Source of the DNA: Aeoliella mucimassa
Lineage (GTDB): Bacteria; Planctomycetota; Planctomycetia; Pirellulales; Lacipirellulaceae
Assembly: GCF_007748035.1 (NCBI RefSeq)
Contig: NZ_CP036278.1
Span: forward strand, 3,844,001 to 3,908,000
Direction of reading: 5' to 3'
DNA length: 64,000 nt
The position numbers were made by a program, and so were the translations under genes. Positions within the stretch are counted from its first letter, which is position 1. Each line of letters opens with the position of its first letter. The notes under the pieces were generated by a model that did no database searches, was not told where the DNA came from, and saw only the letters and a program-made list of their open reading frames with translations. This document shows, in pieces, positions 7,009-58,550 of this stretch.

Positions 7009-8508
7009 TTACATGTTAGTTGCTCGAGGTTTCACCGCTGGGTGCTCCTCGGTTCGCTTTCCAAACGCATACCACTCCACGCGGAGTGCCATAGGATTTG
7101 GAGTGATGTCTTTAGCCGACCTGACCGGCATGAAGGTTCCATTCCACACGTCGATCTCTACGATGTTTTCGCCCTGCTTGAGACCGTCGGTGATGTCGAC
7201 GAAACGAAACTGATCGTGCCCAAACTCCTGCCCCTGGACATTATCAATCCAGCTTTGCACTTCGACTTCGTGACCATTCACCCGGACCTGTTGAATGCCG
7301 TTGTCAGCCAAGAACCGGCCAAATAATTGAATGGTCGAGAGGTTGTAACCCGTTAAATCAAACCGCGTTTGAAACGTGTATTTCGAATTTGGTTCGGCAG
7401 TCCGCCAGGTTGGTACGGAGACCCATTGCGATAAGTCAGGCTCGTTCGCAACGTAACGTTCATCGGGATGACATACGGTTGCGTACTCCGGGGACACACT
7501 TTCGCCGCCGGGGGCGTCGACAATAAGCCAGTTCGGATCCTCGTCTCCGACCGCCAGACCATGCCCCGTGTTATGAAGAGTGATCGGATGATAAGGGACG
7601 ACCGAAGAGAAATCAAATGTTTCGGCAAGCACTTCAGGCAATAGCGGCTGATTCTGATGCTCACCATCCGGGGCGATCACGAATGACTCCCCCTTACTGA
7701 CCAACAATCCCCGCTGCTCCTTGGGAAGATTGTTACGTGGGTGTACGCGGACCAGGCCTTCGATCACCCGAGTTTCGTCTTGATTGTCGTCGCCAGCCGA
7801 AACGGTGAACGTGGTCCCCAGGTCGACGACTTCCATCGATTCGGTAATCACGGTGAATCCGCGGGCCCATTCCGCGACATGGACCGCGAGTTCGCCACGG
7901 ACCAGATGCACCCGGTCGTGGGCGTCGAACTCCAGCACGCAAGGCGATTTCAAGGCGATTTCGGCTCCGCACCCAATGCTAATTTGGGCTTCGCCGGCGA
8001 GGAGTTCGATGCGATCTCCCTCGCGAAATATTTTTCCCTCTTCCCAACGCTCTTCTTTCCAAACCGCACCGGTTTGCATAGAGAGAGCGGCCACAGGGGC
8101 TGGTGGGCGGGAGGTGGCAACCACCTGAGTAATTCGTGGCGGTGTGAACTCGAATTGATGCTTTGGCGGCGAAGGCTGTGGAATCATCCCGAGCACGATC
8201 GCTACCGAAACCGCAATGATCATCGCGTGGGGCAAGTACCGCCACCTTCTCGGCTTGGCAGGTAGCGGGCACAGGGGAGCGAGTACTGGGGGCGGATCCA
8301 AATCGTCTTGTACCACTCCTTGCTGAACCATGGCCTCCGCCTGCAGCTGAACCTCTAGCTGCAGATAATCGACCATGTAGCGTAAGCGATCGGGATAGCC
8401 CAGCACCAGTTGCTCAAGGCGTTCCCGCTCTTCGGGCGCCAGTTCCGAGTCGACGGCTTTTGCAAGCAGCTGATTCAGTTCTCGCTGGATGACTGGGGAA
8501 AAGCTCAT
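7009..8508 (-). CDS. FecR-domain anti-sigma factor with C-terminal sugar-binding-like domain
   Basis: 499 residues. Residues 1-90 form a cytoplasmic region (MSFSPVIQRELNQLL... EERERLEQLVLGYPDRL) like planctomycete anti-sigma factors; residues 94-110 are one membrane helix (HAMIIAVSVAIVLGMIP); residues about 140-260 are a FecR domain (GDRIELLAGEAQISIGCGAEIAL... VVDLGTTFTVSAG). The last 200 residues end in a beta-rich segment (FQTRFDLTGYNLSTIQLFGRF... DITDGLKQGENIVEIDVWNG) that looks like a galactose-binding-type sandwich. The start is ATG 8508 with AGGAGG upstream, overlapping the sigma gene stop as ATGA, so the pair is translationally coupled. The layout suggests the periplasmic part senses a glycan and releases the ECF sigma factor; that role is inferred. 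Confidence 0.85.
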   Translation of the reverse strand: MSFSPVIQRELNQLLAKAVDSELAPEERERLEQLVLGYPDRLRYMVDYLQLEVQLQAEAMVQQGVVQDDLDPPPVLAPLCPLPAKPRRWRYLPHAMIIAVSVAIVLGMIPQPSPPKHQFEFTPPRITQVVATSRPPAPVAALSMQTGAVWKEERWEEGKIFREGDRIELLAGEAQISIGCGAEIALKSPCVLEFDAHDRVHLVRGELAVHVAEWARGFTVITESMEVVDLGTTFTVSAGDDNQDETRVIEGLVRVHPRNNLPKEQRGLLVSKGESFVIAPDGEHQNQPLLPEVLAETFDFSSVVPYHPITLHNTGHGLAVGDEDPNWLIVDAPGGESVSPEYATVCHPDERYVANEPDLSQWVSVPTWRTAEPNSKYTFQTRFDLTGYNLSTIQLFGRFLADNGIQQVRVNGHEVEVQSWIDNVQGQEFGHDQFRFVDITDGLKQGENIVEIDVWNGTFMPVRSAKDITPNPMALRVEWYAFGKRTEEHPAVKPRATNM

Positions 8509-9032
8509 GACGATACCTCCTCTCCCAGCCGGTGTTTTACACAACGCAGCAAAGCGACTCGCAGTCGGCCGATCATTTTTTCGACCGACGTGGCTGTTTT
8601 TCCGACACGAGTCGCGATGTCGCGCATCTTCAAGCCGCTACGATATCGCAGGAGAAACAAGTCGCGGTGCTCGGCGGAGATTCCAGCCAAGCACTTGGAT
8701 AGCGCGTCTTGCCGGACTTCAAACCAATCTTCGGTCGCTTCGGAGCTGATCACTTTCGCTAGCTCCGATACCAGTTCGTCGCTAAATACCAGCTTGCATC
8801 GCATTTGACGCTTCCGATAGGCCAGCACCTGCAGCCGAGCTATCTGAAATGCCCATGCAATGAAGTTCGAACCTGGATCGAATTGATCGGCCTTGTCCCA
8901 AATCACCAAGTTGGTCGATTGCAGAATGTCTTGGGTGGCTTCACGATCTGCTGTTAACGTGAAGATGTAGCCTTGCAATCGGTTTTGGCTGGCAGTGAGC
9001 TTTGAGACAAGTTCTGCCGTTGCTTTATCCAT
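8505..9032 (-). CDS. ECF RNA polymerase sigma factor
   Basis: 175 residues from ATG 9032. Region 2 is seen in LTADREATQDILQSTNLVIW and AWAFQIARLQVLAYRKRQMR. Region 4 is seen in GISAEHRDLFLLRYRSGLKMRDIATRVGKTATSVEKMIGRLR, a helix-turn-helix. This matches the planctomycete/verrucomicrobial ECF group whose anti-sigma partner is a FecR-domain membrane protein, and here that partner overlaps by four bases. The frame extends upstream to 9080, but that start adds residues not typical of the family. A 14-bp palindrome lies about 160 bp upstream. Likely targets are its own operon and the PEP-CTERM/DUF1559 genes downstream; this is inferred from gene order. Confidence 0.9.
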   Translation of the reverse strand: MDKATAELVSKLTASQNRLQGYIFTLTADREATQDILQSTNLVIWDKADQFDPGSNFIAWAFQIARLQVLAYRKRQMRCKLVFSDELVSELAKVISSEATEDWFEVRQDALSKCLAGISAEHRDLFLLRYRSGLKMRDIATRVGKTATSVEKMIGRLRVALLRCVKHRLGEEVSS

Positions 9033-9188
9033 AGCGCCTGTTTTGTATCCAGAAAAGAGCAGAAACGACCGCACTGTCACGAATCCGCTAAGGGCAAATA
9101 GCCGCTGGCGACATTATCCGACATGAAACCGGCAAACAAAATTGTTTTTTTGGAAAGTTTCGCATTCAGATCGGACTCACAGAAATGT

Positions 9189-9410: not shown

Positions 9411-9970
9411 CTTGCCAGTTTTCGCTAGAAATTGGCCACTGATGGTGTTCTAATGGACAGGCAATGGAAAGTGTCGACTTTTAGCTATCGGCTGTTGGCT
9501 TTTTGACGAAAGGAGTTGATGGAGATGTGATGTCTATCTAAATGTCAGATTACCAGCGACGAGCAGGCGAATGTTCGTTTGCGTGGGCGTTTGCTGCTGC
9601 GCGGTTTCTAAGCTGTAGGCTTTAGGCTGTAAGCGGTAGGCTGAGATCTTTCAGTCGTTGGAAGCTCCTTCAAGATGACATTCCGCAATCCGCAATCACA
9701 AATCCCCAATCGGCCCCCTCCCAAAATACTTTCCCACCCATGGGAATCTATTTTGGGCAACTATCGCGGAGGTGTTGATGCAACTCGATAACTACCAACG
9801 ACTTGCGATTGATTCCCACCGCGAAAATAGATTCCCACTCGATGCGTTTTGGGAAATGGGAATCTATTCAGGCGCGAAAACCACTGGTTTTGCAGTGTGG
9901 GCGCGGATTCAATTTTCCCATCGGTGGGTAAATTGGGAATCTATTTGCCCAGCGGTGGGAATCTATTCCG
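9411..9970 (+). repeat. Intergenic repeat family, copy A (~560 bp)
   Basis: The same ~570-bp sequence occurs at 41195-42180 (interrupted) and, inverted, at 55821-56399. Shared blocks in order are: GGTGTTCTAATGGACAGG; AGCTATCGGCTGTTGGC; a GC-rich stretch with GCAGGCGAA...GCGTGGGCGTT; AGCTGTAGGCT/AGCTGTAAGCGGTAGGCT; then a hairpin-rich 3' part. The 3' part carries the 11-mer GGGAATCTATT five times in both orientations, the dyad AAAACCACTGGTTTT, and the stem CAATTTTCCCA-TCGG-TGGGTAAATTG (9910-9935, one mismatch). Copy A is the most diverged. It sits between the divergent sigma factor and GH97 genes. No long conserved frame exists, so it is treated as non-coding. Nothing further is seen at 9971-10206. 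Confidence 0.85.
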
Positions 9971-41151: not shown

Positions 41152-41617
41152 CAACTGGCAGGCTTACTCTCCAACCAACGCTATCCCAGCTGTCTGGCAT
41201 TCTTTGCCATTTTGTGCTGGGAAATGGCCACCCAACATGTTCTAATGAACAGGTACGCATGGCTTTCAGCTATCGGCTATCGGCTTCTTAGTGATTGGAG
41301 GTGATTTAGATGTAATGCTTTCTGTGAAGTCGAACGTTTAGTAACGCGCAGGCGAACGGTTGCCCGCGTGGGCGTTCGCTGCTGCGCGGTTATCAAAGCT
41401 GTAGGCTCTAAGCTGTAAGCGGTAGGCTAGATGCTTCGGGTCGCTGGAAGCTCCCGTCAGCATGACATCCGCTTACCTGTATCCCCAAAACTTCCCTGCC
41501 CCCCGAATCCTGTTTCCTGACTCCTCCCAAGAATAGTTTCCCATGGGTGGGAATCTATTTTGGGCACTTTCCGCGGAGGTGTTGATGTAAATACATACAG
41601 GCAAATGACTTGCGACC

Positions 41618-42040
41618 GCTAGGCACCGCAAAACTGAACTACTACCGGCTGGAAGCCGGTAGGTTTGGAAAGAGTTCGTGAGCTACGGACTGAAGTCCTT
41701 CACTCACGAAGGCGTTACGCGGAAGTTATCTTCCCCGTCTTTGGGCTCCGTTCCCCGCTGACCCTGGATATACGCGGTAATCGCTTCCTCAGTCACACTT
41801 CCGCTAGACGCCACAAAGTACCCGCGGGCCCACAAATGACGCCCCCAGTACTGCTTTTGCAGATGCTGGAACTCCATCAGAAGCTTTCGCGAGTTCCTCA
41901 CCTACTGTAACTTCTCGCCCCAAACGAAATGGCATTTCAAAATAAAGCGGCAATGTGCCCCAGTCCGGTAACTATCCATCCTAGTAGTATATGAACCTGA
42001 AGGTTTCGCCTGAAGGCGAGGGTTCTAACCCCATCGGTTG
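41618..42040 (-). mobile_element. Decayed IS200/IS605-type element inside repeat copy B
   Basis: About 420 bp with no match in repeat copies A and C. It contains subterminal hairpins as in IS200/IS605 ends: CTACCGGCT-GGA-AGCCGGTAG near 41640-41662 and GGACTGAAGTCC near 41685 on one side, CGCCTGAAGGCG near 42008-42019 on the other. Between them lies a transposase remnant on the minus strand. Compared with copy A, about 15 bp of the repeat are missing at the junction. Ends are approximate. Confidence 0.75.
41704..41979 (-). pseudogene. IS200/IS605 TnpA remnant (internal deletion and stop codon)
   Basis: The frame starts at ATG 41979 with MDSYRTGAHCRFILKCHFVW, the TnpA N-terminus, then hits TAG at 41902-41904 and resumes in frame with VRNSRKLLMEFQHLQKQYWGRHLWARGYFV and EEAITAYIQGQ (catalytic Tyr region). 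The central part, including the HUH metal-binding motif, is missing, so it cannot be active. Y1-family transposase identity is clear from both ends. Confidence 0.85.
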
Positions 42041-42218
42041 GATAATAGATTCCCATCGGATGGGTTTTGGGAAATGGGAATCTATTCCAGTGCGAAAACC
42101 ACTGGTTTTGCAGAGTGCGTGCAGATTCAATTTTCCCATCGGTGGGAAAATTGGGAATCTATTTCGCCTGCGCGAATTCTCGCCCCGCGCAACCCGAGCG
42201 GTGGCTAGCGGGCGGTGG

Positions 42219-50444: not shown

Positions 50445-51128
50445 CGACTACCACGTTCGTCGGAGAGGGGAGAACCAGGAACGTGCCTTTTGAGGAGTGA
50501 GGGTGGGAACACAGCACCATTCAAATCCAGAGTAGCGGTGACATGATAACGTATTGAGCAACCGGACCCAAACAATTCTTGATGAACCCTTGGTTTCTTT
50601 TTCACAAAACAACCGCATGTTTCCTACATCAACACAACTCCAGGTAACTGAGGAAGTTTATGGCGAGTAACAACTCTGATGCACGAACCTACTCAAGCAA
50701 TCGTCCTGAACAGAATCACAAGACACTCGACGACTCGCTTGCACAACCTTGCCTAAGCGTTGTCTCCGAAACACCAAAGCGTTGGAACAAGCGCACCACT
50801 AAGAAGATCGTCGAAAGCTGCGTGAGCTGTTTTCTAAGTCCGTGATTCAAAAACATAGTCCGTTGCTGGCAGCGTCCCGTATCGACTTTGTTTCCTCCTA
50901 TATTTGTGGATGTTTTTATCGATTCAGGCATGTCTTTTCTGTACAATGATCGTTCGCGATGGTCTTGCTCCTCTCAACCCAACACCTCCTCCTCAATCCC
51001 TTCGGCGCGTCGCGTCGCCCGCATCACTCCCCGCCACACGGCATCAGGGTCGCTCTCCCTTCGACCGATCCATGGCGTCTAGCAATGCGCGCGAAGCAAC
51101 TCGCCTTGGTGGCGGAAAGGCCCACTGC
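50445..51128. other. 684-bp divergent intergenic region
   Basis: It separates the giant cytochrome gene from the CotH-like gene. Apart from the doubtful short frame at 50660-50845, I see no gene, repeat copy or strong dyad here. Longer frames for the CotH gene begin at 50904, but those residues have no domain or signal character. Confidence 0.4.
50660..50845 (+). CDS. Possible small protein, 61 residues, unrecognised
   Basis: ATG 50660 is preceded by TGAGGAAG at good spacing. The product is hydrophilic and Ser/Lys-rich (MASNNSDARTYSSNRPEQ...) with two cysteines near the C-terminus (ESCVSCF). No family recognised. It lies in a long gap and could be chance. Confidence 0.25.
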   Translation: MASNNSDARTYSSNRPEQNHKTLDDSLAQPCLSVVSETPKRWNKRTTKKIVESCVSCFLSP

Positions 51129-54100
51129 ATGCGTAACCGACCACTTCGAATCGAGAGTCTCGAGCCTCGCCAACTGCTGGCAGCCGATCCGCTCATCACG
51201 GAGTTCATGGCCAGTAACAACGCGACCCTCGCCGATGGTGATGGCAATTACCCCGACTGGATCGAGGTGCACAATCCCACCGACTCGTCGATCGATCTCT
51301 CCGGTTGGCACCTGACCGATGATGCTGCAAACCCGACGAAGTGGAGCTTCCCGAGCCTCACGCAGTCGGTGCTTGCTCCTGGTGAGTACCTGTTGGTGTT
51401 TGCTTCGTCGCAAGAGGGTAACGACTACGTCGACGCCGATGGATACTTGCACACCAACTTTGCCCTCAGTGTGTCTGGAGAGTACCTGGCCCTTACCGAT
51501 CCCGTGGGGGGGGTGGTCCACGAGTTTGCTCCGGAGTATCCCGAGCAGCTTATCGACGTTTCGTACGGTATTAGCCAGGCGAACACGGTGCTGCTGCAAG
51601 GCGATTCGCCAGGGCGATACTTGGTTCCACCAGACGACTCGCTGGCAAACACCTGGACCACGCCCGCTTTCGACGACTCGCTGTGGACTCCGTCCACGCT
51701 TGGCATTGGATACGAGACCAATCCCACGTCTGGCGGCACCGGCGACCTCATCAACTTGGCTCTCAACGGCATCACTTCGCAGTCGTCGCAGTTGTCGTCG
51801 TTTGAATCCGACCGGGCGATCGATGGCGATCTGACTAACTTCACGCACACCGCTGCCGGGCAGGACCTGCCCGCCACCTGGCAGGTCGACCTCGGCGACG
51901 CGTACGCCCTGGAGCAAATCGTGCTGCACAATCGCGATGGCTGCTGCTTCTCGCGTTTGCGCGATATTACCGTCGAAGTGCTCGACGAAACCGACGCGGT
52001 CATTTTTACTTCGGACTTGCTGAATCCCGAGAACATCCTCGGCGGTGGAGTGGTGTTTGCTGGGCCGGAAACGCTGGAAGTCGATCTCGTTGCCCTTACC
52101 GGCGGATCGCTGTTGGGACAAACCGTCCGCGTGATTCGCACGCCGGATCCCGACCTTTCGGGAACCGCTGGCAATGGCAATCACGACGAGGCCGATGTAC
52201 TTTCGCTCGGTGAAGTGCAAGTGTTTGGCCGCGAAACGGTAAGCTACGACCAGCTGTTCCCCACGAATCTGCAAACCGACATGTTCGGGGTAAATAGCAG
52301 CGTTTATCTTCGCAGCACGTTCGAATACGACAGCCAGACAACTCCCCTGGAAGCACTGCTTCTGAACGTGCAGTACGACGATGGATTCGTTGCCTACCTC
52401 AATGGAGTGAAGATCGCCGAACGCAACGCGCCTGCAGAACTTGGGTACGATGCAACCGCGACCGCTGAACGCAACGACGTGCAGGCGATTCGTTTTGAGT
52501 CGATCAATCTCACTTCGTATCTCAACCTGCTGGTCGACGGGGAGAACGTGCTGGCACTTCAGGGGCTTAACCTGAGTGCCGGCGATGATGATTTCCTGCT
52601 GGTTCCGGAACTCAAAGGTATCGCCACGACTTCGGCCGAGCGGTATTTCGACGTCCCGACACCCGGCTCGGCGAACAACGAGGGGGTGCTCGGCAGGGTT
52701 GCCGATACTGCGTTTAGTGTCGATCGCGGGTTCTACGATGCCCCATTCCAAGTCGAGATTACCTCGCCTACGCCTGCTGCCAGTATCTACTACACCACCA
52801 ACGGCGAAGTCCCGACACCGACGACTGGGCTGCTCTACACGTCGCCGCTGACGATCTCGCAAACCACGGTGCTTCGCGCAGCAGCGTTCAAGACCGACTA
52901 CATCGCAACCAATGTCGACACGCAAACCTACCTGTTTGTCGACGATATCGTAAGCCAGGATTACCAGGCGACCCTCGACGCGGGGTTACCCACGAACTGG
53001 GGCGGGGTATCGCCCGACTACGGCCTTGATCCCGACGTCATCGGCGACTTCGACGAGCAAGGCAACTCCCTGGGGGGAGACAACTACGGCGGAATCTACG
53101 CCGACTCGATCAAATCCGATCTCGTCTCGATTCCCACGCTGTCGATCGTCATGAGTACCGACGATCTGTTTGGCGACGATGGCATCTACACGAATAGCAC
53201 TGCAGGCGGTGTCGCCTGGGAGCGTGCGACTTCGGTAGAACTCATCAATCCCGATGGGAGCGAAGGTTTTCAGGTCGACGCTGGCATCCGCATCCAAGGG
53301 GGCTACTTCCGCTCGCACAGCGCGACCAAGAAGCACTCCTTCCGCTTGCTGTTCAAAGATGAATACGGGCCGACGACGCTCAACTTTCCTCTCTTCACAA
53401 ACGACGGAGCCGTCGACGAGTACAATACCATTGTGTTGCGGGCGGGGGCCAACGATGGATACTCTTGGAACGCGGCCCGCTATACCGAACAGTTCACCCG
53501 CGACGAATTCGGGCGGTTGCTGCAGAACGACCTGGGGCATCCCAGCGCCCACGGCAATTTCGTCCACTTGTACATCAACGGCATTTACTGGGGTCTCTAC
53601 AACCCGGTCGAACGCCCTGACAACGAGTTTGCTGCCAGCTACCTGACCGGCGATGCGGACAACTGGGACGCGATTCACGTTGGCGATGCCCAGACCGGCG
53701 ACTTCCAAGCGTGGGATGCCATGCTCGCGTTGTCGGACGATGCGGGCTCGTCGCTGAGTGCTTTCTATGAGCTCCAGGGCAAAGGCGTGGATGGATCCAT
53801 CGACGAATCCATCGCCCCGCTGCTGAATGTTGAATCGTACATCGACTACATCATGCTCAACGTCTGGGGAGGCAACTGGGACTGGCCATTCAAAAACTTC
53901 TGGGCGGGGCGGGATCGCGATCCGGCAACTACCACCGGGTTCGAGTTCTTCAGCTGGGACTTCGAAAACACGATGGGCAACAATCGCAGTCGATCTCCCC
54001 TTTACGCCACGACGCTCGACCAGGACTTCACCGGCAGCCGCAACGCGGGGCAACCGCATACGAATCTCAAGTCGAGTCTCGAGTATCGCATGTTCTTCGC

Positions 54101-55808
54101 CGACCAGATTCACGAAGCCTTCTTCAACGACGGAGTACTCACGCCCGACTACCTTATCGATCGCTATCAGCAACTTGCCGATCAGGTCGAGCAGTCGATC
54201 GTTGCCGAGTCGGCCCGCTGGGGCGATGCGATTTTCGGCACTCCGCTCACCCAGGACGATTGGCTCGCCGAGCGCGATTGGATTCTCGAAACTTATCTGC
54301 CGCAACGTTCGGCGATCGTGTTGCAAGAGTTTCGCAACTATGGTCTGTATCCTAGCATCGATGCCCCCGTGTTTAGTCAGCATGGTGGTCAGGTAGTAAG
54401 CGGGTACGATCTGTCGATCACCGCCTCGGCGGGAAGCATCTACTACACGCTCGACGGTTCGGACCCTCGCCAACCCGGCGGGGCGATCAGTCCTTCCGCC
54501 ATCTTGTACACCGGACAGCCAATCGAGGTGACCTCCACGTCCCAAGTGCAAGCCCGCGTGGTGCAGGGTGGCAACTGGTCGGCACTCAACTCCGCTCTGT
54601 TTACAGTCGACACGCTGGCAAATGCTACGAATCTTCGCATCACCGAGCTCCAGTACAATCCCGCGCCACCCACCACCGCGGAAGCGAATGCCGGCTGGGT
54701 GGACAACGAGGAGTTCGAGTTCATCGAGTTGTTGAATACCTCCGATCAAACGATTGACTTACATGGCGTGACCCTCTCGGGCGGCGTCGATTTCCATTTC
54801 GATTCGTCCACTCCGCTGGCTCCCGGCGAGCGGGTGGTGCTGGTCGAGAACGAAGCTGCATTCCAAACGCGATACGGCATCACAGCTCGCATCGTCGGTC
54901 AATGGACCGGCCGGCTTTCCAACGGCGGCGAAACCCTCACGCTGCTCGACTATCAGTCGGAACTCATCCAATCATTTACCTACCAGGATGGCGACGACCC
55001 CGGCGAGGAAGCCTGGCCCACCGCACCCGATGGCAATGGCCCTTCGCTCGTGATCATCGACCTGCAAGGTGACTACAACGATGGTGCCAACTGGACCACG
55101 TCGACCGCGGCGAACGGAACGCCTGGCGCCGACGACACGCCAGTCCTCCCGGGCGACTACAACCTCGACCTCATGGTCGATATGGCCGACTACCAGGTCT
55201 GGAAGTCGAGCATCGGCCAGACGCTCGCTGCCGGCACGGGTGCCGATGGCAATGGCGACGGCCTCGTGAGCCTCGCCGACTACACCGTGTGGCGCGACCA
55301 TCTTGGCACTTCACAGCCGACGATCAGCAGCCTTGCGGCAACCAACTTCAGCGACTCTGCCGCGTCGAGCACGACGGTTCCAACCACTCCCACGACTCCA
55401 ACCACCCAACCAGCGGACGCTAGCGTCGACCAGGTCGCCGAGACTCCGATCGACGATTCTGAAGAACCGGCTACTGCTCCCGCTGCGGATCGCGCGTTTC
55501 AGGATATCGGTAGCCCGAACACCGCCAGACCGCTTTCGTTCATGGTAGTGCAAACCGCCAGCAGACAGCTTTCCGCGAGTCACTCCCGATCGTTGCCGAC
55601 TGCTTCCACTGCGAGCGAATCCGCGCTGCGACCGCAAGTCGCTACTGGTTTGCTCGCTACGAACACCGAACAGTCCACGGAAGTTCATCATCCACTGCTC
55701 AAGCAACCACGCAAACAGGATGACCAACACTTGGTCCGCGAGCAGGCGTTTAGCGACTTCGATACGCTCGCAGATCGCACCGAACGCTCGCTGCCGAACC
55801 TTCGGTAA
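51129..55808 (+). CDS. LEPR-XLL/lamin-tail/CotH/dockerin multidomain surface protein
   Basis: 1,559 residues from ATG 51129, with GGAAAGG 8 nt upstream; ATG 51072 is an alternative. The N-terminus LRIESLEPRQLLAAD is the planctomycete LEPR-XLL signature. Then: lamin-tail domain (about 18-150), F5/8-type discoidin-like domain (about 210-365; RAIDGDLTNFTHTAAGQ), a chitobiase/CHB_HEX-type domain (about 535-590; ASIYYTTNGEVPTP), a CotH kinase-like domain (about 660-1070; HLYINGIYWGLYNPVERPDNEF, FSWDFENTMGNN), a second CHB_HEX-like domain (about 1085-1150; SIYYTLDGSDP), a second lamin-tail domain (about 1165-1310) and a dockerin pair (about 1340-1395). The tail is Thr/Pro-rich with no PEP-CTERM. 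CotH relatives are protein kinases or coat proteins; the role here is unknown. Confidence 0.9.
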   Translation: MRNRPLRIESLEPRQLLAADPLITEFMASNNATLADGDGNYPDWIEVHNPTDSSIDLSGWHLTDDAANPTKWSFPSLTQSVLAPGEYLLVFASSQEGNDYVDADGYLHTNFALSVSGEYLALTDPVGGVVHEFAPEYPEQLIDVSYGISQANTVLLQGDSPGRYLVPPDDSLANTWTTPAFDDSLWTPSTLGIGYETNPTSGGTGDLINLALNGITSQSSQLSSFESDRAIDGDLTNFTHTAAGQDLPATWQVDLGDAYALEQIVLHNRDGCCFSRLRDITVEVLDETDAVIFTSDLLNPENILGGGVVFAGPETLEVDLVALTGGSLLGQTVRVIRTPDPDLSGTAGNGNHDEADVLSLGEVQVFGRETVSYDQLFPTNLQTDMFGVNSSVYLRSTFEYDSQTTPLEALLLNVQYDDGFVAYLNGVKIAERNAPAELGYDATATAERNDVQAIRFESINLTSYLNLLVDGENVLALQGLNLSAGDDDFLLVPELKGIATTSAERYFDVPTPGSANNEGVLGRVADTAFSVDRGFYDAPFQVEITSPTPAASIYYTTNGEVPTPTTGLLYTSPLTISQTTVLRAAAFKTDYIATNVDTQTYLFVDDIVSQDYQATLDAGLPTNWGGVSPDYGLDPDVIGDFDEQGNSLGGDNYGGIYADSIKSDLVSIPTLSIVMSTDDLFGDDGIYTNSTAGGVAWERATSVELINPDGSEGFQVDAGIRIQGGYFRSHSATKKHSFRLLFKDEYGPTTLNFPLFTNDGAVDEYNTIVLRAGANDGYSWNAARYTEQFTRDEFGRLLQNDLGHPSAHGNFVHLYINGIYWGLYNPVERPDNEFAASYLTGDADNWDAIHVGDAQTGDFQAWDAMLALSDDAGSSLSAFYELQGKGVDGSIDESIAPLLNVESYIDYIMLNVWGGNWDWPFKNFWAGRDRDPATTTGFEFFSWDFENTMGNNRSRSPLYATTLDQDFTGSRNAGQPHTNLKSSLEYRMFFADQIHEAFFNDGVLTPDYLIDRYQQLADQVEQSIVAESARWGDAIFGTPLTQDDWLAERDWILETYLPQRSAIVLQEFRNYGLYPSIDAPVFSQHGGQVVSGYDLSITASAGSIYYTLDGSDPRQPGGAISPSAILYTGQPIEVTSTSQVQARVVQGGNWSALNSALFTVDTLANATNLRITELQYNPAPPTTAEANAGWVDNEEFEFIELLNTSDQTIDLHGVTLSGGVDFHFDSSTPLAPGERVVLVENEAAFQTRYGITARIVGQWTGRLSNGGETLTLLDYQSELIQSFTYQDGDDPGEEAWPTAPDGNGPSLVIIDLQGDYNDGANWTTSTAANGTPGADDTPVLPGDYNLDLMVDMADYQVWKSSIGQTLAAGTGADGNGDGLVSLADYTVWRDHLGTSQPTISSLAATNFSDSAASSTTVPTTPTTPTTQPADASVDQVAETPIDDSEEPATAPAADRAFQDIGSPNTARPLSFMVVQTASRQLSASHSRSLPTASTASESALRPQVATGLLATNTEQSTEVHHPLLKQPRKQDDQHLVREQAFSDFDTLADRTERSLPNLR

Positions 55809-55820
55809 GCCGAGCAAACC

Positions 55821-56399
55821 GCCCAGCGGGCAATAGATTCCCAATTTTCCCACCGATGGGAAAATTGAATCTGCACGCACTCTACAAAACCAGTGGTTTT
55901 CGCTCTCGAATAGATTCCCATTACCCAAAACGCATCGAGTGGGAATCTATTTTCGCAGTGGGAATCAATCGTAAGTCGTGTGCCTGTATGTATTTACATC
56001 AACACCTCGGCGATAGTTGCCCAAAATAGATTCCCACCCATGGGAAACTATTCTTGGGAGGAGTCAGGAAACAGGATTCGGGGGGCAGGGAAGTTTTGGG
56101 GATACAGGTAAACGGATGTCATGCTGACGGGAGCTTCCAGCGACCCGAAGCATCTAGCCAACCGCTTACTGCCTGAAGCCTGCAGCTTTCACAAACGCGC
56201 AGCAGCGAACGCCCACGCAAGCAACCATTCGCCTGCGCGTTGCTAAACGTTCGACTTCACAGAAAGCATTACATCACACTCACCTCCCATCACTAACAAG
56301 GCCAACAGCCGATAGCTGAAAGCCGCGAGCCTCACTCGCCTGTTCATTAGAACACCGCAGGTGGCCATTTCCCAGCGAAAAGTGGCAAAGAATGCCAAG
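55821..56399 (-). repeat. Intergenic repeat family, copy C (579 bp, inverted)
   Basis: The reverse complement matches copies A and B over the full length, ending at the TGGCA-type stem near 56383-56397. It is the intact version of copy B: it keeps ATGTAAATACATACAGGCACACGACTT followed directly by GATTCCCACTGCGAAAATAGATTCCC, without the IS200 remnant. It holds GGGAATCTATT four times in both orientations and the perfect stem CAATTTTCCCA-CCGA-TGGGAAAATTG at 55842-55867. It lies between the convergent CotH and SDR genes. Confidence 0.88.
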
Positions 56400-56445: not shown

Positions 56446-57189
56446 TTAGATGCACCAACCGCCGTCGATCACGTGGATTGCTCCGGTGGTGTAGCCCGAC
56501 TCGTCGGCGGCCAGGTAAACCGCCAGAGCGGCGATTTCCTCCGGCGTTCCGATCCGGCCCATCGGCTGGCGGGCGACGAAGGCCTTGCGGATCTCTTCGT
56601 AGTCGCCTTGGGCGCGAATGCGGTCTTCGAGCGAGGGCGACTCGACCGTACCGGGGCAGATGGCGTTCACCCGGATGCCCTGGCCCACGAAGTCGGCCGC
56701 GACCGCTTTGGTAAGCCCAATCACCGCGGCCTTGGTGGTTCCGTAGGCAAAGCGATTCGGCACGCCGGTCACGCTCGAGGCTACCGAGGCGACATTCACG
56801 ATCGATCCCCCGCCATGGGCGACCATGCCAGGGAGGAACGCGCGAGTCATGCGGTACATCGAAGTCACGTTGAGATCGATCGAGCGTTGCCAGTCGGCTT
56901 CTTCGCAGTCGAGAATCGTGCCATGGTGCACGTAGCCGACGCAGTTGAACAGCACATCGATATCGGTATGGCTGGCCGCCATGCTGGCGATCGCTTCGGC
57001 GTCGCACACGTTGAGCGGGGCGATTTCGATCGAAGGGGCTTCGGACTTGAGTGCTGCGAGTGCTTCTTCGTTAATATCGGTCGCAAGCACCTGAGCCCCT
57101 TCGCGGCTGAATGCCAGCGCGGCGGCTTTGCCGATGCCCTGCCCCGATGCGGTCGCCAGGATCTTTTTGCCTTCTAGACGTTGCCCCAT
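56446..57189 (-). CDS. SDR oxidoreductase, probable 2-keto-3-deoxy-L-fuconate dehydrogenase
   Basis: 247 residues from ATG 57189 (GAGGA upstream). Rossmann motif ATASGQGIGKAAALAF (the TAxGQGIG form of the DHRS6/BDH2-like branch), NCVGYVHHG, catalytic Ser in VNVASVASS and YGTTK as the YxxxK pair, and C-terminal VIDGGWCI. That branch contains 2-keto-3-deoxy-L-fuconate dehydrogenases and hydroxybutyrate dehydrogenases. The L-fuconate dehydratase gene directly upstream (44 bp) makes the fuconate role the better reading. Cytoplasmic and NAD(P)-dependent. Confidence 0.88.
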   Translation of the reverse strand: MGQRLEGKKILATASGQGIGKAAALAFSREGAQVLATDINEEALAALKSEAPSIEIAPLNVCDAEAIASMAASHTDIDVLFNCVGYVHHGTILDCEEADWQRSIDLNVTSMYRMTRAFLPGMVAHGGGSIVNVASVASSVTGVPNRFAYGTTKAAVIGLTKAVAADFVGQGIRVNAICPGTVESPSLEDRIRAQGDYEEIRKAFVARQPMGRIGTPEEIAALAVYLAADESGYTTGAIHVIDGGWCI

Positions 57190-57233
57190 TGCTTTCCTCA
57201 AGTTAGTGAACGCTTCAATGACGGAATTTTGGA

Positions 57234-58550
57234 TTACTTGCTGAGCCGCTTCTGCCATTCGACTCCATCTGGGTAGCGATAGTCATCGAGACTCGCGGTG
57301 TGAATCTCGGCACTATACCCGGGAGCCTGTGGCGGCATGTAATGCCCTCGCTTCACCTCCACGGGATAAACAAAGTGCTCATGCAAGTGGTCGACGAACT
57401 CGGCGACGCGATTCTCTAAGCTTGCTCCCACCGCGATGTAGTCGATCATCACCAAATGGTTCACATACTCGCACAGCCCCACACCACCCGCGTGCGGGCA
57501 GACCGGCACACCGAACCTCTTGGCCATCAGCAGCACGCCAAGTATCTCGTTCACGCTGCCGATTCGGCAACTATCAATCTGACAGAACGAAATCGCATTG
57601 AGCTGAAGCAACTGCTTGAACATCACCCGATTCTGGCATTGCTCGCCGGTGGCGACGCCAATCGGCGCGATCGCCCGCGCAATCTCAGCATGGCCGACCG
57701 CATCGTCGGGCGATGTCGGTTCTTCGACCCACCACAGGTTGAACTCGGCCAGCGACTTGACCCATTCAATCGCTTCGGCGACTTCCCATCGCTGGTTCGC
57801 GTCGACCATCAACTTGCGATCGGGGCCAATCACTTCACGAATGATCGCCGCGCGACGACGATCATCCTCCAGGTTGGCTCCCACTTTCAGCTTGAAGTGC
57901 TCCCATCCGTCGGCCAACGCTTCGCGACACAACCGGCGGATCAGGTCGTCGGAGTAGCCGAGCCAACCGGCCGAGGTCGTGTAAGCCGGGAAGCCCGTCT
58001 CTAACAGCTCCGCTTCGCGAACTGCTTTTGTCGCTTCGTTGGCTTGCAGGATCTCGAGCGCCTGCTCTTTGGTGAGGGCGTTGGAGAGATAGCTGAAGTT
58101 AATGCACCGCAGTAACTCCTCGGGAGTGAGATCGCATACCAATTTCCATAGCGGCTTTCCTTCGGCCCGCGCCCAGAGGTCCCACACGGCATTCAGCAGC
58201 GCCGCGGTGGCCAGATGCACCACCCCTTTCTCAGGCCCGAGCCATCGCAGTTGCGAGTCGTTCGCCAGCTGGTGAACCGTCTCGCTAAACGACTCCACCA
58301 GCGTCGAAAGCTGCTTGCCGACGATCTTCTCGGCGAGTTGCTCAATGGCTCCCACACACAAATCGGTGCCCCGGCCAAGGGTAAAAGTAAGCCCAAAGCC
58401 AGTGAGGTCGGATTGGTTGGTCGTAAGCACGACGTACGCGGCCGAATAGTCCGGGTCGCTATGCATGGCATCCGAGCCATGCGCTTCCTCCGAAGTAGGA
58501 AAACGAAGGTCGACGACTTTGCAATCGGTGATCGTAAGTGTTGGGTCCAT
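57234..58550 (-). CDS. L-fuconate dehydratase (enolase superfamily)
   Basis: 438 residues, normal for the family. It dehydrates L-fuconate to 2-keto-3-deoxy-L-fuconate. Family landmarks: DLRFPTSEEAHGSDAMHSDPDYSAAYV, GFGLTFTLGRGTD, catalytic lysines in HFKLKVGANLEDD, metal ligands in VDANQRWE, WWVEEPTSPDD and VATGEQCQNR, and CPHAGGVGLCEYVNHLVM. These match the L-fuconate dehydratase/ENOSF1 group closely. There is no strong ribosome binding site before ATG 58550. It lies between the permease (40 bp upstream) and the SDR, in one minus-strand operon. Confidence 0.92.
   Translation of the reverse strand: MDPTLTITDCKVVDLRFPTSEEAHGSDAMHSDPDYSAAYVVLTTNQSDLTGFGLTFTLGRGTDLCVGAIEQLAEKIVGKQLSTLVESFSETVHQLANDSQLRWLGPEKGVVHLATAALLNAVWDLWARAEGKPLWKLVCDLTPEELLRCINFSYLSNALTKEQALEILQANEATKAVREAELLETGFPAYTTSAGWLGYSDDLIRRLCREALADGWEHFKLKVGANLEDDRRRAAIIREVIGPDRKLMVDANQRWEVAEAIEWVKSLAEFNLWWVEEPTSPDDAVGHAEIARAIAPIGVATGEQCQNRVMFKQLLQLNAISFCQIDSCRIGSVNEILGVLLMAKRFGVPVCPHAGGVGLCEYVNHLVMIDYIAVGASLENRVAEFVDHLHEHFVYPVEVKRGHYMPPQAPGYSAEIHTASLDDYRYPDGVEWQKRLSK

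Follow-up and report, generated by a model that had tools for sequence, protein, structure and literature searches.

Several kinds of bacterial intergenic repeat offer points of comparison for the element described here. REP sequences and BIMEs, with their REP-associated tyrosine transposases (RAYTs), are clusters of palindromes that lie between genes, reach a high copy number and play host to insertions of IS elements, and the short tandemly repeated heptamers of cyanobacteria are degenerate arrays with a period of 7. MITEs, as far as the available parts of two published accounts go, are non-coding, high in copy number and highly base-paired (PMC3049150, PMC10969869). According to the part of the first of these that is available, the BOX element of Streptococcus pneumoniae is present in 125 copies of 422 modules with predicted stem-loops; boxA and boxC lie at its ends, boxB is absent or repeated between them, and the element is thought to have spread in the past of the species (PMC3049150). 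The element of Aeoliella mucimassa that we report belongs to a familiar type, the high-copy modular intergenic repeat, but has an unusual form.

The flagged hairpin and its element

The window is a stretch of 64,000 nucleotides (positions 3844001-3908000 of a single 6,608,792-base contig) with a G+C content of 57.6%. The original prediction drew attention to a hairpin, here called H7, in three copies (A, B, and C) of a repeat. That repeat is real, but far larger than described at the time, since it measures about 550 bp and has definable ends on both sides; H7 is positioned at the 3' end of this non-coding, intergenic mosaic element. The features in the window are as follows.

9413-9967, plus strand: copy A, from the 5' head to the last box, placed by a head 441 bases before the core (as in L012) and by alignment to other copies; ends approximate, within about 10 bases
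9645-9680, plus strand: H3 of copy A in the most frequent state, GATCTTTC...CAAGATGACA
9910-9935, plus strand: H7 of copy A, from a pattern search, with the T mismatch seen in 54 of 83 copies
41205-42163, plus strand: copy B, split by an IS200 remnant; placed by sequence, its head lying 867 bases upstream of the core
41205-41258, plus strand: 5' head of copy B, with the promoter-like TGnTCTAATG...ACAGG
41430-41467, plus strand: H3 (module M5) of copy B, GATGCTTC...CAGCATGACA, a covarying hairpin in the GC state
41526-41565, plus strand: H4 of copy B, CCCAAGAATAGTTTCCCA TGGG TGGGAATCTATTTTGGG
about 41630-42043 (about 410 bp), no strand assigned: IS200-type remnant inside copy B, its ends judged by eye against uninterrupted copies
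42044-42086, plus strand: H5 of copy B, box AATAGATTCCCA, 19-base loop, box TGGGAATCTATT
42095-42109, plus strand: H6 of copy B, AAAACC ACT GGTTTT, plus one A and T outside
42128-42153, plus strand: H7 of copy B, CAATTTTCCCA TCGG TGGGAAAATTG, perfect, from a pattern search
42151-42163, plus strand: terminal box TTGGGAATCTATT of copy B, overlapping H7
55832-56387, minus strand: copy C, between the 3' ends of two convergent genes
55842-55867, minus strand: H7 of copy C, letters and loop identical to copy B
56117-56154, minus strand: H3 of copy C, GATGCTTC...CAGCATGACA
56334-56387, minus strand: 5' head of copy C

H7 is a genuine hairpin, well above chance. The pattern CAATTTTCCCA-N4-TGGGAAAATTG is matched in the window with no mismatch at 42128-42153 and 55842-55867 and with one at 9910-9935, and 100 dinucleotide shuffles of the window contain no match to it with up to three mismatches. 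The 11-bp arms of copies B and C, both without mismatch, and the single mismatch of copy A had been described correctly, as had the adjoining dyad AAAACCACTGGTTTT (42095-42109) and the arms of a larger stem, AATAGATTCCCA (42044-42055) and TGGGAATCTATT (42075-42086). The loop difference that was reported between copies B and C disappears when copy C is read on the minus strand, which gives CAATTTTCCCATCGGTGGGAAAATTG, 26 letters identical to the hairpin of copy B. The hairpin had also been called perfect, which applies to copies B and C but not to the genome as a whole, where the perfect right arm TGGGAAAATTG is a minority form present in 24 of 83 copies; 54 copies have TGGGTAAATTG instead, the copy A form that produces a T-T mismatch, and five have neither exact form.

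The convergent ORFs that border copy C are 50904-55808 (plus strand) and 56446-57258 (minus strand). The remnant inside copy B contains a Y1_Tnp match at 41758-41898 on the minus strand, which covers only profile positions 75-121 of 121. Adjoining copy A, at 8505-9080, lies an ORF for a 191-residue protein with sigma-70 regions 2 and 4 (supported by Pfam), and this ORF overlaps one with a FecR domain (7009-8544).

Copy number and modular architecture

With up to three mismatches, the core GCGAAAACCACTGGTTTTGCA occurs at 113 places in the genome (39 forward and 74 reverse), and the exact 12-bp box AATAGATTCCCA occurs 586 times. Heads, again with up to three mismatches, number 133 in the 6.6-Mb genome (51 forward and 82 reverse); the backward-read controls gave 0 for all three. 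By our own reckoning, 113 units of about 550 bp correspond to near 1% of the genome. The copies compared below come from 80 stretches fetched around cores with 0-2 mismatches among 100 listed of the 113, a choice in which the most diverged copies are under-represented; these stretches hold 84 cores, and as copy A of the window duplicates L012, 83 copies remain. A further 20 stretches around heads or boxes without a listed core were used only in the work on diverged copies and on GC skew.

The 5' head, CCASTTTTCGCTGGRAATTGGCCACYnnnRGTGnTCTAATGRACAGG, is placed upstream of 79 of the 83 cores (a stricter pattern gives 79 rows, and a looser one 80, where L040 is not a head by eye). When all 83 copies are compared against each other, the mean number of partners is 82, 65, 22, and 7 at 40, 60, 80, and 100 bases past the core, and on the 5' side it is about 10 at 540 bases ahead of the core and has climbed to 43 at 440; homology between copies falls off over a few tens of bases at the 3' end and over about 100 bases at the 5' end. 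An uninterrupted element of suitable length is present in 62 of the 83 copies, and these measure 492-643 bases from 30 before TGGCCAC to 78 after the core start.

The 5' and 3' modules are constant, and the inner ones vary in kind and number. Read 5' to 3', the first half consists of the head, the array M2 (period 7), a GGAGG...ATG-stop motif, a GC-rich hairpin, and the M4 array or an alternative block, and the second half of the palindrome M5/H3, the pyrimidine-rich period-7 array M6, H4, a GGAGGTGTTGATG block, H5, H6, and H7, and a final box. In M2 and M6 the identity at lags 7 and 14 is 0.51-0.59, compared with 0.20-0.36 at the remaining lags from 3 to 15, and M4 has a fainter period-7 signal, with 0.39 at lag 7 and 0.42 at lag 14. 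The H4 loop is CCCA in 30 and TGGG in 29 of the 83 copies, the rest being other or unassigned, and the boxes counted after the core number one, two, three, and four in 37, 30, 11, and 2 copies, with none in three.

Among alleles at eight positions, 26 of 28 pairs show no clear association, with allele classes that leave 5 to 31 of the 83 copies unassigned per position. Both exceptions involve the H4 loop, which stands out in its pairing with the block that directly follows it (a value reached by 1 of 500 shuffles) and with M2 (7 of 500). Because the module alleles assort almost independently, the copies are mosaics, which probably arose by recombination or conversion.

One class of 12 of the 83 copies (e.g., L011, L022, and L032) has a built-in module, TGTAGGAGCGGTCTCTGACCGCGA, that we take to resemble the GTAG-headed REP of other bacteria. 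Immediately 5' of the heads (e.g., G000:C1:215072), a repeat CCTGATAGCCCGACCC and/or a GGGCTAAACGA block is found in 35 of 79 copies, and CCTGATAGCCCGACCC has 30 genomic places at up to one mismatch. A diverged, older subfamily (L129-L135) retains most boxes and carries an inner inverted repeat near GACTTACGTCGA...TCGACGTAAGTC, as in L131; most boxes are kept in L129, L131, L133, and L134, and L130, L132, and L135 have at least one altered arm.

Constraint on the stems

For the 119-base 3' part of the element, 82 copies were extracted and 78 aligned, with L030, L037:4903, L054, and L071 omitted for their other lengths. Averaged over the arms, the minor-allele fraction is 0.0053 for H5, 0.0043 for H6, and 0.0018 for H7, the last figure leaving out the variable column 104 (0.31), compared with 0.053, 0.030, and 0.074 in the respective loops and 0.273 and 0.153 in the spacers. 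The arms are thus about 7 to 150 times less variable than the loops and spacers. For the H6 core, through which the copies were found, and for the anchors in the left arm of H5 and in the final box, at which they were trimmed, part of this conservation is a product of the choice; the H7 arms played no part in it. As the arm fractions lie far below those of loops and spacers, the stems are constrained, and they do not decay like the rest of the repeat.

The original prediction read this preservation as selection on structure. The constraint stands, but it is the letters that are kept in H5-H7, where 0 of 29 pairs have changed on both sides (77 distinct rows). In H7 just one pair truly varies, and 53 of the 77 distinct rows have it unpaired; slid controls pair far fewer cells, which shows only that the H5-H7 palindromes exist. 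A palindrome can persist letter for letter without compensatory evidence for structure, and H7, being nearly invariant, is uninformative on pairing; the inference of structure holds for the neighbouring hairpin H3. Here (GATNNTTC...NNATGACA), two variable pairs are both paired in 51 of 51 matches among the 83 copies, the first as C-G in 42, T-A in 3, G-C in 3, and T-G in 3, and the next as T-A in 37, C-G in 12, and T-G in 2; the counts are pattern-based, as the MAFFT alignment gapped the stem, and they miss copies with altered flanks. The mutual information is reached by 0 of 2000 shuffles, in a type of shuffle that is inflated by kinship of the copies, but the complementary states of H3 in themselves require compensation. 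H3 covaries, and for this module shape therefore matters.

For H4, aligned as 77 extracted rows with copy B of the window added by hand, the signal is weak, although the covariation score is reached by just 1 of 500 shuffles. Four pairs have changed on both sides, in seven cells, values reached by 39 and 18 of 500 shuffles, and slid versions of the stem give one to three such pairs. The outer pairs of H4 fall in array sequence, and in 60 of 63 rows columns 12 and 29, which should form one of its pairs, do not match.

Recognition of sequence or of shape

The exact 12-bp box is found in the right arm of H4 in 76 of 83 copies, in the left arm of H5 in 76, and in the right arm of H5 in 78, and TTGGGAATCTAT follows H7 in 77. 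The left arm of H4 differs from the box, with AATA[GC]TTTCCCA in 69 of 83 copies and the exact box in only two. Pairing alone would leave each hairpin free to have its own arms, so the shared box argues for sequence; since the box recurs in separate hairpins and 0 of 29 pairs are compensated, sequence recognition fits better than pairing alone. For the flagged hairpin, we therefore favor a protein that would recognize DNA sequence over recognition of an RNA shape, with an RNA role as the less probable reading. Among the three functions that had been offered for the stems (RNA, transposition end, or protein site), a protein site or transposition end appears to fit best.

Promoter-like head and Shine-Dalgarno motif

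The TG-n-TCTAAT segment of the head resembles an extended -10 promoter. TG is present in 79 of 79 heads and is followed by a freer base (T in 65) and then by TCTAAT, which is invariant at five of six positions and starts 17 bases after TGGRAA; as the rows were selected by a TGGCCA plus TCTAATGRA pattern, those letters are conserved partly by choice, but TG and TGGRAA are not. Downstream, 43 of 68 GGAGG sites examined are followed by ATG and an immediate stop codon, and this arrangement is found in two unlike sequence classes, GGAGGTGATTGCGATGTGATG and GGAGGATGGAAAGATGTAACC. Judged from the letters, the promoter-like head and the Shine-Dalgarno plus start-stop motifs would be compatible with a transcribed function. 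A protein-coding role for the 3' half, considered below, is disfavored by the variability of codon positions and by the count of synonymous and non-synonymous changes.

Mobility and genomic setting

No target site duplication was found in 79 copies, where the longest run shared by the two flanks averages 4.41 bases, compared with 4.48 for mispaired copies. Nor is there a shared terminal inverted repeat; the longest inverted match between the two 45-base ends averages 6.1, compared with 5.1 in shuffles, which is a slight excess, and the match reaches at most 10 bases (in two of 62 copies). The search for a parent IS covered Y1 transposases, which occupy 13 places in the genome. Boxes are present in the fetched flanks of five of these (L090, L092, L093, L094, and L099), and in none of the five do they form the ends of the IS itself, which, judged from the box positions, lies inside or beside a copy. 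The only RAYT identified, at L096 (NF047646, 80.6 bits with a cut-off of 80), has no box within about 1.5 kb and no tested module beside it, and the diverged Y1 places L100 and L101 are likewise without boxes.

IS200-type insertions inside copies are seen in the window (41630-42043, the truncated remnant) and at L070, L072, and L092-L094. Transposases of the IS5 and IS110 families lie inside copies at L017:2053-3033 and L047:2098-3051, one of each having been classified; genes of equal length and score to these are found inside six and five examined copies, and in the five-copy group the start of the gene is 460-494 bases away from the head's 5' margin.

Copies are found between genes in every arrangement, with 17 convergent, 14 divergent, and 12 and 10 tandem pairs in the 53 of 80 cases where both neighbors were called by a home-made and imperfect gene caller, which failed to call the sigma-factor ORF (8505-9080). 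As copies B and C are convergent in the window, a role like that of a terminator was considered, but it was rejected because all arrangements occur among the copies examined. An orientation linked to replication was likewise rejected, as the 39:74 bias of the cores and the 51:82 bias of the heads extend along the whole chromosome with no switch where the GC skew, judged coarsely from the fetched stretches, changes. An empty site was sought for one gene pair, that at copy C, in two congeners and one other genus with about 1.5 kb of flank; in these (L138-L140) the orthologue of one neighbor has no CotH gene, the other member of the pair, next to it.

Distribution among relatives

The element is lineage-specific among the relatives searched. 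A 223-base query matched its own genome alone among 39 genomes, and the box-hairpin pattern was found in that genome alone among 59, the 58 others without it including three congeners of the genus Aeoliella. The exact head pattern had no match in the GTDB r220 collection, where its own record may be absent. Module M5/H3 belongs to the same kind as the GATNCTTC...GNATGACA palindromes of other genomes. The GATCCTTC...CAGGATGACA form occurs in three of 38 other genomes searched, with 12 examples in G001, 45 in G013, several times as close opposed pairs, and 3 in G017; all three genomes are without the box hairpin of the Aeoliella mucimassa element.

Possible origins and functions

On balance, we consider it fairly probable that the element is a lineage-specific, BOX/BIME-like non-autonomous mosaic with H7 in its 3' palindrome cluster and with a hypothetical mobilizer. 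It would be a non-coding interspersed element that multiplied in the Aeoliella mucimassa lineage, with boxes that a trans-acting protein may recognize as DNA, either in the duplex or as a single strand extruded from it. The simplest recognizer would be a putative recombinase or transposase that spreads the element, now or formerly, without target duplication, and the copies would later have swapped modules by recombination or gene conversion as their spacers drifted. Against this reading, the 13 Y1 places include no mobilizer, and the element has no target site duplication and no clear terminal inverted repeat; the left arm of H4 is not a box, and H3 covaries. Conserved promoter-like and Shine-Dalgarno-like motifs are moreover not needed by a passive passenger. 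The passenger-like, palindrome-bearing nature of the element is more certain than what moves it. Such motifs would suit an explanation that we regard as unlikely, in which each copy is transcribed as a small unit and yields a structured non-coding RNA; the head would act as promoter, the hairpins would fold in the RNA, and the Shine-Dalgarno start-stop would touch ribosomes. It agrees with TG and TCTAAT at 17 bases after TGGRAA, with GGAGG-ATG-stop in 43 of 68 sites of two unlike classes, and with the covariation of H3, where one pair takes three Watson-Crick types and its neighbor two, and where the wobble cells (T-G 5, C-A 0), in small numbers, are as a sense strand predicts. Fold stability is not stranded, however; whole-element folding gives a mean z of -3.0 for the sense and -3.6 for the antisense strand (12 of 62 copies, 25 shuffles each per strand), copy C gives -2.85 and -4.86 on its two strands, and a strength that is similar on both strands is what DNA palindromes would give. 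Compensatory changes in H5-H7 number 0, the window has no Rfam match at the gathering score and L016 nothing better than E 0.2, and no T-run was seen after the last hairpin on reading the sequence. A bolder version has the more than 100 copies as active promoter-bearing units that make a structured RNA with a ribosome-binding site and then a start-stop, their modules reshuffled by recombination; this seems improbable, and if true, the copies would form a freely recombining multicopy family of RNAs or DNA sites rather than a set of dead insertions.

The 586 exact 12-bp boxes, constant in otherwise unlike contexts, would also suit binding sites of a host DNA-binding protein with a role in regulation or in the structure of the chromosome; the repeat would have spread these sites, and the cell would now make use of them. 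We find this quite unlikely, as the box hairpin is absent from the three congeners and from all other relatives searched, and so is no old essential site, and as the copies occur in every gene orientation with a 39:74 bias that does not track the coarse GC-skew arms. It is also doubtful, to a degree that we would call improbable, that the copies are inert remnants of a dead mobile element without current function, their arms held constant by repair within palindromes and conversion between copies. The mosaic copies fit such a history, as do the several other IS elements inserted in them, as in a harmless refuge, but conversion should homogenize the spacers too, and their variability is about 30-150 times that of the adjacent arms; the T-T mismatch kept in two thirds of the copies is at odds with simple arm-to-arm repair. 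Hardly credible, finally, is a small protein encoded by the 3' half and starting at GGAGGTGTTGATG. A frame of at least 40 codons is open in 45 of the 55 copies that bear GGAGGTGTTGATG, and stop-making changes account for 5 of 357 single-base codon changes, compared with 19 of 351 by random change, yet variability at codon positions 1, 2, and 3 is 0.049, 0.073, and 0.046, so that the third is not the highest, changes are 41 synonymous to 311 not, compared with 70 to 262 for random change, ATG-stop is found in 9 of the 55 copies, and GGAGGTGTTGATG is missing from 28 of 83.

Comparison with known repeats

Like REP and BIME sequences, the Aeoliella element has palindromic units that are clustered, intergenic, high in copy number, and hit by IS elements, and its module GTAGGAGCGG...CCGCGA (12 of 83 copies) resembles a classical GTAG-headed REP. 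The whole unit is much longer than a BIME, and a REP system with RAYT was rejected as an identification because the RAYT of L096 has neither boxes nor tested modules beside it. With MITEs, as the available parts of the accounts cited above portray them, the element shares its non-coding nature, high copy number, and extensive base pairing. It has no clear terminal inverted repeat and no target site duplication, and is thus not a MITE in the strict sense, and it further differs in that no parent IS was found among the Y1 transposases searched. Unlike the cyanobacterial heptamers, its period-7 arrays are inner modules of a larger dispersed element.

The nearest likeness in build is to BOX, as described in the available part of its account and by description rather than by sequence, in that both have a high copy number, modules, and stem-loops. 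The Aeoliella element differs in its greater length (about 550 bp), its inner period-7 arrays, its promoter-like head, and its 12-bp box that recurs in several hairpins. No planctomycete description of such an element was found among the open-access papers listed, and the available text of a paper on Aeoliella does not use the word "repeat". With this element it becomes testable how a repeat can multiply that has no terminal inverted repeat, target site duplication, or visible transposase, and why the variants of its modules assort almost freely among dispersed copies; it would also give planctomycetes a BOX-like family.
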